A stretch of 56,544 nt of DNA from a virus: the IMG/VR virus record IMGVR_UViG_3300050132_000119, positions 1 through 56,544 of that record. One strand, 5' to 3'. Both the position numbers and the translations under genes were made by a program. The notes beneath the pieces were generated by a model that was given only the letters and a program-made list of their open reading frames with translations, searched no databases and was not told where the DNA came from. This document shows positions 7,006-11,714 of this stretch, one piece after another (position 1 is the stretch's first letter; each line of letters begins with the position of its first letter).

Positions 7006-7740
7006 GTGGAAAGCATGAGGAATAAATGTATGAGTTGGCTCTTTTCGCGGGTGCTGGTGGTGGATTGCTTGGAACACAGCAACTCGGTTTCAAAACACTC
7101 TGTGCTGTGGAATTGGACTGGCACCGCCGATGTCTTCTTGCACAGCGACAAAATGAGCGACTCCTACGAGATTCATTCCCGATTTGGGATGACGTTCGTA
7201 CCTTTGACGGTAGAGCGTGGCGCGGCAGAGTTGATATGGTCTCTGGGGGATTTCCTTGCCAAGCGTTCAGCACAGCGGCAAGAGGGCGCAATACTGCCGA
7301 TGACCTTTGGGGGGAAATGCGAAGAGTCGTGGCAGATGTCTCTCCCCGGTACGTCTTCGCCGAAAACGTCAGCACCAAAGCCATTGAAGCCGCTGGGAAC
7401 GAACTGTCCTCGATGGGTTTCAAAGCCGAAATGCTTTCCCTATCTGCGTCAGACTTGGGCGCAGACCACATACGGGAACGGCATTGGCTACTTGCATACA
7501 CCGACGACAAAAGCCAATTACGCAGCCAAATCAATGCAAAAGTGGCCGAGTGCAAGGGCGTTTGTGGAAGTGTTTGGAGTGGTGAACCCGGAAAATCAGG
7601 AATGGCTGATGGGATTTCCACCCGGATGGAGCGATATGAAGCCACTGGAAACGGGCAAGTTCCAGTTGTGGCAGCAGCAGCTTTGTGGACACTTGCAAAC
7701 TCTTGATGCCCGACAATTGCTAGATGACAGACATCCTTGA
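7006..7740 (+). other. Overlapping second reading frame inside the methyltransferase gene
   Basis: A 244-codon frame shifted relative to the methyltransferase spans the whole gene. Its second half reads like protein: YLHTPTTKANYAAKSMQKWP, then NPENQEWLMGFPPGWSD, then KPLETGKFQLWQQQ. These resemble tails I recall on other phage methyltransferase-like proteins. The same bases give motif X (GNGQVP) in the main frame. It may be an overprinted gene, a frameshift product, or a trace of a past frameshift. Its first half looks random, so an internal start would be expected if it is translated at all. Confidence 0.35.
7026..7706 (+). CDS. C5-cytosine DNA methyltransferase
   Basis: A 226-residue protein with the ordered motifs of Dcm-type enzymes: I (LFAGAGGG), IV (GGFPCQ, catalytic Cys), VI (AENVS), VIII (RERHW) and X (GNGQVPVVAAAALW). 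The target-recognition region between VIII and X is very short, so it is a small enzyme of its class. It should methylate cytosine in phage DNA and so guard against restriction. GAGGA about 6 bases before the ATG supports this start. From about 7330 onward the DNA is also open in a second frame with methyltransferase-like signatures (see the 7006-7740 entry). Confidence 0.88.
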   Translation: MYELALFAGAGGGLLGTQQLGFKTLCAVELDWHRRCLLAQRQNERLLRDSFPIWDDVRTFDGRAWRGRVDMVSGGFPCQAFSTAARGRNTADDLWGEMRRVVADVSPRYVFAENVSTKAIEAAGNELSSMGFKAEMLSLSASDLGADHIRERHWLLAYTDDKSQLRSQINAKVAECKGVCGSVWSGEPGKSGMADGISTRMERYEATGNGQVPVVAAAALWTLANS

Positions 7741-7825
7741 CCTTCAGGACTGGACCGTGGTTTCCCAGCACCAAGAAGATGGCGTTTGACAGATCATAGG
7801 GAGACCTCTGGGTGGTCAAACAAAG

Positions 7826-8200
7826 TTGGGATATTTGCAATGCAGACTTAACGGGAATACCCATATGATGCACCGTCTTGCTTGGTTGTATGTTTATGGT
7901 CAATTTCCCTCCGATGAGATAGACCATATCAATGGAATTAGAACGGATAATAGAATCGGTAATCTTCGTGATACACCTCATAAACGAAATCAGGAAAATC
8001 AGAAACTGAATGTTCGTAATTCTAGTGGGTGTCGTGGGGCAACCTGGTGTCCTCATGCGAATAAGTGGAAGGCTTGTATATGCCATCATGAGAAGCGACA
8101 GCGCCTTGGTTATTTCACTTCAGTAGAGGAAGCAGCAGCCGCGGCAAAGGAGGCAAGAGACAGACTATTTACACACCATCACACATCAAACTCGTCGTAA
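7826..8200 (+). CDS. HNH homing-type endonuclease, probably 5'-truncated
   Basis: A protein of about 124 residues matching the HNH_3 plus AP2-like family: HRLAWLYVYGQFP, IDHINGIRTDNRIGNLR (the HNH core), then SSGCRGATWCPHANKWKA and LGYFTSVEEAAAAA. Full-length relatives, including the copy at 10777, have about 45 more N-terminal residues. Here an in-frame TGA at 7787-7789 blocks them, and the only start is a TTG at 7826 or an internal ATG. It is AT-richer than its neighbours, as expected of an invading gene. It may be a remnant. Confidence 0.7.
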   Translation: MGYLQCRLNGNTHMMHRLAWLYVYGQFPSDEIDHINGIRTDNRIGNLRDTPHKRNQENQKLNVRNSSGCRGATWCPHANKWKACICHHEKRQRLGYFTSVEEAAAAAKEARDRLFTHHHTSNSS

Positions 8201-9005: not shown

Positions 9006-9368
9006 ATGAAAATTAAAACGAATCGTGTGGATAACAAGCTCGGCGATTTCCCACTTACACCTTCTCACACAATTGACGGGAAGCTATTATTCTCAGGTCG
9101 TACACTCTTTGAACTGAGATCGACACACGGGCTCCCTCTTGATTTTGCACTCTCTCGGGTAATTACTGGCCTAGGGATGGCGGTGGACTGGGTAGGATTC
9201 ATTGAGACTGCTAGGCGTAATAATTGGTGGGACTATCAGACCTACGAGGTGATATGTCACGGAATGGAAGATGCTGGGTTGCCGAAAGAGATGCAGAGTG
9301 CAATCCGCACAAGATTCCAAAAGTACGTTCTTCTTCATCAACACCCAAAGATGTCGGGTGCTGAATGA
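9006..9368 (+). CDS. Conserved protein between SSB and polymerase genes
   Basis: A 120-residue protein. GRTLFELRSTHGLPLDFALS, VDWVGFIETARRNNWWDYQT and EDAGLPKEMQSAI recall a conserved protein often found between the ssDNA-binding protein and the polymerase in phages, whose function is not known to me. ATG 9006 is preferred to the GTG three bases earlier because AAAAGG then has normal spacing. The stop overlaps the polymerase ATG, so the two are coupled. Confidence 0.7.
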   Translation: MKIKTNRVDNKLGDFPLTPSHTIDGKLLFSGRTLFELRSTHGLPLDFALSRVITGLGMAVDWVGFIETARRNNWWDYQTYEVICHGMEDAGLPKEMQSAIRTRFQKYVLLHQHPKMSGAE

Positions 9369-10780
9369 GTAACGATTATGTGTTCGATTTAGAAACCTAC
9401 CCCAACGTATTCACCATGGCAGTGGAGCACTGTGATTACCCTCTCACCTGGGCATTTGAAATCTCCCCTTGGCGCAATGACTCCAGAGCCATTATTGACT
9501 TTGTGATGTGGCTCAAGAGTCAGGGCGCTCGGATGGTCTCCTTCAACGGCCTCGGATTCGATTATCCAATTCTCCACATGCTCATGAAGATGGGTAACGG
9601 CGATGCGCAGACCCTGTACGGCAAGGCCATGGCAATTATCAATTCACAGGATGACGATGATAAGTGGGCTCACTCTGTTAACCCGAGTGACCGAATCGTG
9701 ACTCAGCTAGATTTGTACAAGATCAGACATTTTGACAACAAGTCCCGCCGCACTGGACTCAAGAGTCTCGAATTCAATATGAGGATGGATAATATCCAGG
9801 ACTTACCGTTCAAGGTGGGCAGTTCACTGACTCAGGACCAGTTGCCTGTACTCAAGCAGTACAACGCACACGATGTCCGCGCAACCAAGGAGTTCTACTT
9901 CAAGAATCTGGACAAGATCAAATTCCGGGAAGAATTGACTCTGAAGTATCAGCGAGATTTTATGAATCACAACGATACCAAGATCGGCAAGGACTACTTC
10001 ATCATGAAGCTGGAGGAAGCCGGGATTCCCTGCTACGAGTTTGGTCCTATGGGTCGTACCCCTCGGCAAACCAAGCGCCCTCAGATTGCGTTGCGTGATG
10101 CGATTCTTCCCTGGATCAAATTTGAACAGCCCGAGTTCACCCGGATTCTGAACTGGTTCAAGGAACAGACCATCACTGAAACCAAGGGTGTCTTTGAGGA
10201 TATCGTTGCTCGGGTCAACGGATTTGATTTCGTATTCGGGCTCGGTGGTATCCATGGGTCTGTTGAGAACCAGATTCTGGTGTCGGATGACGAGTTCGTT
10301 ATTGTGGATATCGATGTGGCATCCATGTACCCGAATCTGGCAATTGCCAATGGGTTCTACCCTGAGCATCTGGGGCCGATGTTCGTCAATATCTACAAGC
10401 ACCTGTACGAACAGCGTAAGTCGTATGGAAAGAACACCGCAGAGAATGCGATGCTGAAGCTCTCATTGAATGGTGTTTACGGGGACAGCAATAACAGATT
10501 CAGTGTGTTCTTTGATCCGCTGTTCACCATGAAAATTACACTGAATGGGCAGCTTCAGATTTGCATGTTGGCAGAGAAGCTGATGCAGATTCATCAGTTG
10601 ACTCTGATCCAGTGCAACACAGATGGTGTGACCATGAGGGTTCCCAAGAATCTCAAGTACCGGGTATCTGAAGTCTGCGCTGAATGGGAGAAGCTGACCA
10701 AGTTGCAGCTTGAGGAAGCCATCTATTCAAGGATGTTTATACGGGATGTGAACAACTACATTGCGGAGTACATAGAATGA
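9365..10780 (+). CDS. Family B DNA polymerase, N-terminal part (exonuclease + palm)
   Basis: A 471-residue protein carrying the 3'-5' exonuclease motifs DLET (Exo I), SFNGLGFDYPIL (Exo II) and YNAHDVRAT (Exo III). It also carries the polymerase motifs A (DIDVASMYPN, near residue 316), B (KLSLNGVYG) and C (CNTDGVTM). It stops soon after motif C, before the thumb. The missing thumb is encoded at 11289-11714, beyond an inserted HNH gene. All catalytic residues are in this half, so the active enzyme is presumably a complex of the two chains. Confidence 0.9.
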   Translation: MSNDYVFDLETYPNVFTMAVEHCDYPLTWAFEISPWRNDSRAIIDFVMWLKSQGARMVSFNGLGFDYPILHMLMKMGNGDAQTLYGKAMAIINSQDDDDKWAHSVNPSDRIVTQLDLYKIRHFDNKSRRTGLKSLEFNMRMDNIQDLPFKVGSSLTQDQLPVLKQYNAHDVRATKEFYFKNLDKIKFREELTLKYQRDFMNHNDTKIGKDYFIMKLEEAGIPCYEFGPMGRTPRQTKRPQIALRDAILPWIKFEQPEFTRILNWFKEQTITETKGVFEDIVARVNGFDFVFGLGGIHGSVENQILVSDDEFVIVDIDVASMYPNLAIANGFYPEHLGPMFVNIYKHLYEQRKSYGKNTAENAMLKLSLNGVYGDSNNRFSVFFDPLFTMKITLNGQLQICMLAEKLMQIHQLTLIQCNTDGVTMRVPKNLKYRVSEVCAEWEKLTKLQLEEAIYSRMFIRDVNNYIAEYIE

Positions 10781-11301
10781 AACCTCTGACTCAGGAGACG
10801 ATATGCAATGTGTTCAATTACGACCCTGCAACTGGTGAGTTCTGGAGAATTCTCACAGGTCATAATAAATCAAAAACAGGCACCATCTCAGTCAGACGCC
10901 AGATTCGTGCTGCTAGTCGAGGGTATCTTCAGGTTGGATTTTCTGGAAAAGTCTATTATGTTCATAGACTCGTTTGGGTGTGGATGACTGGTCAAATTCC
11001 TACGTTTATAGATCATATTGATGGAAATAAGAAGAATAATGAGTGGGCAAACCTACGACAAGTTCTGCGGGATGATAATTATCTGAATCTAGGTGTCGGC
11101 ACCCGGAATAATTCTGGTGTTACTGGTGTCTACTGGCACCCCGCTGTGAATAAATATGCAGTGCAGATAACTAAAAACGGTAAGCAGAAGTATCTAGGCT
11201 GCTTTGATAGTATCGAAGAGGCAACTGCTGTCAGAAAAGAAGCTGAGTCATTACTTGGTTTCCATCCTAATCACGGAGAACGACTATCATGGCGCGAGTG
11301 A
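10777..11301 (+). CDS. HNH endonuclease inserted in the DNA polymerase gene
   Basis: A 174-residue HNH_3-type protein. The N-terminal region has NYDPATGEFWRI, the nuclease core is VHRLVWVWMTGQIP with DHIDGNKKNNEWANLRQV, and the AP2-like DNA-binding part is NNSGVTGVYWHPAVNKYAVQ with YLGCFDSIEEA. Its ATG overlaps the stop of the polymerase N-part and its end overlaps the start of the C-part by 13 bases. It fills the insertion completely and leaves no room for an intron core. It probably spreads by cutting uninterrupted polymerase genes of related phages. Confidence 0.9.
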   Translation: MKPLTQETICNVFNYDPATGEFWRILTGHNKSKTGTISVRRQIRAASRGYLQVGFSGKVYYVHRLVWVWMTGQIPTFIDHIDGNKKNNEWANLRQVLRDDNYLNLGVGTRNNSGVTGVYWHPAVNKYAVQITKNGKQKYLGCFDSIEEATAVRKEAESLLGFHPNHGERLSWRE

Positions 11302-11714
11302 AAAGAAAAGGTGCGTATGAGTGGGATGTGGAATGGCATCAGAATCACTCAGCGCTCATTGTTCCAAAAGTAACTGAGATGGTATTACTCGATGGGGCAC
11401 CAATCAGAGAGACTGTGGAATCATGGACAGATATGTATGATTTCTTCATTCGTACCAAAGTACCCCGTTCCAGCTACCTCCAGTGGGGTGAGGCTCAGGC
11501 CCAAAACGTGTCCCGCTACTATGTGGCAAAGGGTGGCAAGCCTCTGTTCAAGCATATGCCGCCACTGGCGAAGAAGCCTAATGAGTGGCGCAAGTTTGCA
11601 GTAGAGAGTGGTTGGAATGTGCAGATTTGCAATGACATTCGGGATGCTACTTTGCCTGTGGATTTCGATTATTATGTGAATGAAATTGAAAAGCTCGTAT
11701 TAGGATTGTCATGA
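11289..11714 (+). CDS. Family B DNA polymerase, C-terminal part (thumb)
   Basis: A 141-residue protein that continues the polymerase sequence. The N-part ends in NNYIAEY and this part resumes with VKRKGAYEWDVEWHQNHSAL, then WGEAQAQNVSRYYVAKGG and VESGWNVQICNDI, as at the end of phage family B polymerases. It has its own start with GGAGAA upstream, so it is translated separately. Only a few residues were lost or replaced at the break, which suggests that a working split enzyme was selected. Confidence 0.85.
   Translation: MARVKRKGAYEWDVEWHQNHSALIVPKVTEMVLLDGAPIRETVESWTDMYDFFIRTKVPRSSYLQWGEAQAQNVSRYYVAKGGKPLFKHMPPLAKKPNEWRKFAVESGWNVQICNDIRDATLPVDFDYYVNEIEKLVLGLS

Follow-up and report, generated by a model that had tools for sequence, protein, structure and literature searches.

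The family B DNA polymerase gene of the viral record IMGVR_UViG_3300050132_000119 (IMG/VR; positions 1 to 56,544, the whole stretch of 56,544 nucleotides being called the window hereafter) is divided into two separately encoded chains, pol-N and pol-C, by a gene for an HNH endonuclease. The same break was found in 33 records, with nucleases of several families at it. The reading that we favour, with a probability of about 0.86, is that nuclease genes without introns have repeatedly invaded one tolerated turn in a single lineage of family B polymerases (PolB), leaving an enzyme made of two chains. The features of the split locus are as follows.

9365 to 10780, + strand: pol-N, comprising the exonuclease, fingers and palm of the family B DNA polymerase (from homologues and the fold of the unsplit relative L014)
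10777 to 10780, + strand: ATGA, the HNH start codon on the pol-N stop codon, a candidate for translational coupling
10777 to 11301, + strand: HNH_3 endonuclease with an AP2-like C-terminal part, of the free-standing homing endonuclease type (from Pfam, alignment, model and tree)
11275 to 11278, + strand: GGAG, a Shine-Dalgarno-like site for pol-C within the HNH coding sequence (G-E codons)
11289 to 11714, + strand: pol-C, which has a start codon of its own and comprises the second hairpin strand (VKRKG) and the thumb

The three genes are all on the + strand, each in a frame of its own. Pol-N (471 amino acids) ends in DVNNYIAEYIE, directly followed by its stop codon, which the HNH gene (174 amino acids) overlaps by 4 bases; pol-C (141 amino acids, beginning MARVKRKGAYE) overlaps the other end of the HNH gene by 13 bases, and its ATG is preceded, 10 nucleotides away, by the GGAG, which lies near the conserved end of the HNH lineage. 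The original prediction, made from the sequence alone, had described a polymerase split by an HNH gene, a Shine-Dalgarno site of pol-C's own, and a gap leaving no room for a self-splicing intron or an intein. The coordinates, frames, overlaps and GGAG are all borne out, and the last point agrees with a gap filled by an HNH open reading frame (ORF) in the third frame and with empty RNA scans. The unsplit homologues that it suggested looking for exist: L014, L015 and the polymerase of phage DSL-LC05 run through the break.

L014 and L015 (L numbers designate loci), both from IMG/VR, share 86% amino acid identity with pol-N, and their junction reads VNNYIAVYEDSHVKRKGAYE; the uninterrupted sequence over the break is also given as VNNYIAVYEDSHVKRKGAYEW. 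The DSL-LC05 polymerase is 68.5% identical to pol-N and 66.2% to pol-C. Pfam returned nothing for either chain, and phmmer found no relative of the unsplit L014 polymerase among solved structures. An AlphaFold2 model of the latter, built from 50 unsplit relatives (mean predicted local distance difference test score, pLDDT, 92.1), nevertheless has the PolB fold, with solved family B polymerases as its Foldseek matches (best 4k8x, E = 8.9e-15). The break falls between two strands of this model, at residues 463-468 and 473-476, which we read as the palm-thumb hairpin, apparently split in its turn; D460, N462, Y464, K474, K476, G477 and Y479 are invariant around it in the 50 sequences. We take VNNY to stand at the place of the PolB KxY motif, so that the recognisable catalytic motifs (exo, A, B and C) would all lie within pol-N, and pol-C would be the thumb plus one hairpin strand.

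Among the 33 split records that could be parsed, near-identical or identical pairs include L139/L140, L174/L176, L187/L195, L146/L148 and L004/L010. The nuclease at the split is an HNH protein in 18, a GIY-YIG protein in 13, a T5orf172/MUG113 protein with a treble-clef finger in one and absent in one, the class being assigned by Pfam for the 14 proteins scanned and by sequence similarity for the rest. In 33 of 33, the last residue of pol-N lies 5-8 residues past NxY and the first of pol-C 3-4 residues ahead of KxKG (with a TTG start codon in L166); 18 of these were retrieved solely by patterns in which the position of the pol-C start is fixed, and the other 15, from protein searches or the window itself, agree on the split position. 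That 33 records are broken at one turn excludes chance. Eleven incomplete loci were left out of the junction reading, and 24 rows were left unparsed in the split parsing.

Among the best 80 IMG/VR relatives of pol-N, the one split gene is L035, interrupted at the same turn by a GIY-YIG gene; the remaining 79 are unsplit. The 43 relatives of the pol-N of phage PVN06 comprise 3 split, 38 unsplit and 2 incomplete genes, and 15 loci on bacterial or archaeal contigs comprise 1 split (L166), 8 unsplit and 6 unparsed. A DNA pattern with a start codon just ahead of KRKG retrieved 12 stretches, 12 of 12 being split polymerases; a second such pattern retrieved 13 (11 split polymerases and 2 unrelated). 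With the nucleases as queries, the window HNH by itself retrieved a single viral locus, which was not in a polymerase; the PVN06 HNH gave eight, three inside a polymerase and five not; the L097 GIY-YIG gave only three contigs already known, and the KpTDp1 GIY-YIG matched four loci. GIY-YIG matches also came from crAss-like and Flavobacterium sequences. The nuclease of L188, considered as a decayed one, proved to be an intact HNH on all-frame translation.

The original prediction knew of no such split in this polymerase lineage, a statement contradicted by the phages already deposited in GenBank: Klebsiella phage JD001 (whose sequence L189 shares), Edwardsiella phage PVN06, RCIP0030, KpVB3, KpTDp1, KpTRp1 and phiAB441. 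A 99-100% identical HNH is present in RCIP0091, RCIP0047 and cmc20193, which are known here from the HNH alone. Annotation has to be corrected accordingly. The PVN06 genome is described as having no DNA polymerase gene (PMC8465730), and in JD001 (L196 14406-15001, gp56-gp57) RefSeq lists the halves as two separate DNA polymerase genes, with only a coding sequence of 192 bases where the ORF of a T5orf172-type nuclease of 276 amino acids sits. Acinetobacter phage phiAB441 (L147 2700-2990) has a second, upstream polymerase break by frameshift, absent in its unsplit relative Ab3-TPeters and not counted here.

A polymerase tree of 97 rows (64 unsplit and 33 split, near-identical unsplit rows having been thinned) contains at least 15 changes between the split and the unsplit state, or at least 11 with starred branches only (shuffled mean 27.5), counts in which gain is not distinguishable from loss. 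Split genes stand next to unsplit sisters in window/L014, L035/L033 and L188/L046, and within Jedunavirus alone there are intact, HNH-split, GIY-YIG-split and T5orf172-split alleles of the polymerase. As for the nucleases, 14 of 16 polymerase-splitting HNHs fall in one clade (support 95/94) when compared with 24 other HNHs from the loci collected; against a broader set of 27 others, the support (98/90) goes to a clade of 15, made up of these 14 and pYD6-A. The L178 HNH groups with a second HNH gene of the window and one from L043 (97/88). These groupings point to one HNH lineage largely loyal to the site, and to others that arrived independently.

It might be argued that the split came first, for example by a frameshift, and that nucleases of several families later settled in a harmless junction, replacing each other. 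Such an order of events would account for L180 (7060-9334), which is split at the same turn without a nuclease, its chains overlapping by 11 bases with AGGAG 6 nucleotides before pol-C. It would also suit the Jedunavirus junction, where the HNH, GIY-YIG or T5orf172-type alleles stand together in the tree, as well as gene 43 of Aeromonas phage 44RR, which has a spacer only (PMC2988022). We nevertheless find it unlikely, since split alleles with intact nucleases stand beside unsplit sisters in the three pairs named above, and since L180, like L166, is a single metagenome contig, in which a sequencing or assembly error is possible.

In several pairs the nuclease gene is less diverged than its flanks. 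Between L004 and L138 the synonymous divergence (dS) is 0.038 in the nuclease, against 0.335 in pol-N and 0.718 in pol-C; the proportion of synonymous differences (pS) is 0.291 against 0.720 and 0.702 in the flanks for L097/L099, and 0.281 against 0.500 and 0.640 for L175/L181. Tracts of replaced sequence accompany the nuclease. L004 and L138 are 94-100% identical from about 2705 through the HNH gene, then 72-92% over most of pol-C. PVN06 and PEi21 are 93-100% identical as far as about 2740, drop to 41-76% between about 2830 and 3445, and return to 93-100% after the HNH gene, up to about 4800; their polymerase genes differ mainly by a palm-plus-nuclease tract. KpTDp1 and KpV52 are mostly 31-81% identical in pol-N, and from about 4258 on the thumb is 97-100% identical nearly throughout. 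The tracts extend upstream into the polymerase only, and end at the nuclease 3' end. Close relatives differ in the presence of the nuclease together with co-converted flanks (the unsplit sisters, and the PVN06, KpTDp1 and L004/L138 tracts). The tract-bearing polymerases pair a foreign palm chain with the resident thumb.

Some observations weigh against the favoured reading. The nucleases of L175/L182 and L098/L099 have diverged as much as their flanks, no long replaced tract separates the window from L015 (there is a dip to 56-62% identity by the junction), and ordinary recombination could be the source of the tracts. The polymerase tree is of a quick kind, with several long branches meeting. 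Two HNHs, those of L177 and L178, fall outside the main polymerase-splitting clade, and against the background of 27 only 10% of bootstrap trees have a branch that sets the 14 HNHs alone apart from all others, so that loyalty to the site is not absolute.

Both halves are under purifying selection. Among 18 split pairs, the ratio of nonsynonymous to synonymous divergence (dN/dS) is 0.022-0.174 for pol-N (median 0.127) and 0.062-0.203 for pol-C (median 0.090), the medians for unsplit pairs being 0.116 and 0.111 in a sample stopped at 150 pairs that are not independent. The detached thumb remains under purifying selection like that on its counterpart in intact genes. Among the 33 split records, 29 have a Shine-Dalgarno-like word, four bases or longer, ahead of pol-C; at mock starts in 125 unsplit genes, where the best of three was taken, 54 do (Fisher test, p = 3e-06, relatedness being ignored). 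These data bear on the idea of a decaying pseudogene, in which pol-N works alone or another polymerase is used and pol-C has lost its function. The concentration of the recognisable catalytic motifs in pol-N would favour it, and so would L166 (3649-4296, on a contig binned as Dependentiae), where the GIY-YIG ORF has an internal stop and the polymerase chains are still separate. It is, however, quite improbable: pol-C keeps its start codon and GGAG, ribosome-binding words are enriched before it, its dN/dS is like that of unsplit genes, and pol-N as a query of the window record found one copy only. It is likely that pol-N and pol-C together form an active two-chain polymerase.

The inserted protein matches Pfam HNH_3 (E = 9.2e-13; 48.1 bits, for a cut-off of 24.8), with a weak AP2 match below the curated cut-off, and H63, D79, H80, N88 and N92 are invariant in 14 aligned HNH members. 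It is predicted to be an active nuclease that would cut the polymerase allele lacking its gene. The best fold match of its model (pLDDT 83.2) is I-HmuI, at E = 2.6e-03, with none at 0.001 or better. Such HNH genes are often found inside group I introns that interrupt the DNA polymerase genes of phages, and together with this match one might expect the window HNH to be encoded in an intron, the halves being joined by splicing. This is highly improbable, as the HNH ORF occupies the entire gap and overlaps both halves, and L180 is split without any insert. Rfam scans of window positions 10400-11700 (matches accepted to E = 5) and of seven further split loci (to E = 1) came back empty, the T4 nrdB intron being detected as a control (E = 5.5e-07). 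Scans at the gathering threshold also found nothing in the window and ten split loci; since the control, at 35.7 bits, falls under the 50-bit threshold, the negative rests on the E-value scans instead. Frames, overlaps and RNA scans thus agree that the HNH gene is an ORF of its own, outside any intron or intein. A split intein ligating the chains after translation, as put forward for Pseudomonas phage MIJ3 (PMC6892783), can be dismissed almost entirely, because the 6 residues past NxY on pol-N and the 4 ahead of KRKG on pol-C leave no room for intein pieces (none were seen, as judged from the chain ends, no intein profile being run) and the HNH gene uses a third frame.

We propose that a free-standing homing endonuclease gene inserts at the palm-thumb hairpin turn of the polymerase gene, where the ATGA overlap would serve upstream and the nuclease 3' end would supply the ribosome-binding site and start of pol-C. 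Given this arrangement, one message would yield three proteins, and the two polymerase chains would rejoin on their natural interface. The nuclease would cut intact alleles and thereby spread, with repair copying its gene and the upstream palm-coding tract as far as the nuclease 3' end. One might speculate further that the hairpin is a standing two-chain joint, at which nucleases arrive, are exchanged and decay, and that the catalytic chain and nuclease pass between genera while the resident thumb stays, so that chimeric replicases recur; this remains tentative, and we hold it as possible rather than probable. The Jedunavirus alleles, and PVN06 set against PEi21, offer a naturally occurring experiment on how an essential replicase withstands division in two, and the turn may serve, as a split site already proven in nature, for the engineering of family B polymerases in two parts.

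Upstream of the split locus, the second HNH_3/AP2 gene of the window (7745-8200), related to the polymerase-splitting HNH of L178, follows a C-5 cytosine methyltransferase. Its frame has one TGA near the start, so the gene either begins later, at a TTG (7826), and is shorter, or is broken. The methyltransferase region (7006-7740) is covered by two overlapping long ORFs in different frames, of 244 and 226 amino acids, and Pfam DNA_methylase is matched only by the latter.

The split belongs to a known kind, represented by the split gp43 of Aeromonas phages and the split NrdA of phage Aeh1, and the recurrent class at this turn is unremarked in the literature searched: in the open-access literature, as judged from search listings and the passages cited here, no paper was seen to describe this palm-thumb split, subscription papers, including the JD001 announcement, lying outside the search. 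Other interrupted phage polymerases have been reported in MEP401 (PMC10580990) and in Lactobacillus phages Semele and Iacchus (PMC6669764), and an interrupted DNA polymerase I pair is described for a Bacillus phage (PMC10684548). I-HmuI and I-BasI are likewise HNH nucleases tied to phage DNA polymerase genes, but are encoded in group I introns (PMC10580990), none of which was found at the split loci scanned here. MIJ3 likewise has its PolB divided between two ORFs that flank an HNH ORF, but a split intein is proposed there (PMC6892783), for which the window chains have no room. The PolB3 of Methanobacteriales is also a two-gene family B polymerase, but an archaeal cellular gene whose origin is ascribed to intein loss through erratic excision (PMC4104785).

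Among the closest parallels are those named in the original prediction, which placed mobE endonucleases between the halves of both the Aeromonas polymerase gene and Aeh1 nrdA. This holds for nrdA but not for gene 43, where phage 25 has a seg-type nuclease gene and 44RR an intercistronic spacer only (PMC2988022). Gene 43 of phages 44RR2.8t and 25 likewise encodes PolB in two cistrons, with the free-standing homing endonuclease between them in phage 25, and its halves co-purify and are active (PMC2988022); this split system also occurs with an intron (PMC2993671). These are T4-like phages with a seg-type nuclease, spacer or intron, whereas the window has an HNH gene without an intron. The 44RR break, moreover, is not at the palm-thumb turn, since the match of gp43A to T4 gp43 ends at 500 and that of gp43B begins at 512, with KKRY at 702 (phage 25 was not compared). 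In Aeh1, mobE, a free-standing homing endonuclease gene of HNH type, similarly interrupts the gene of an essential enzyme, which stays active (PMC2988022); it differs in the enzyme and the insertion, and concerns one phage, whereas here nucleases of several families occupy one site in many lineages.

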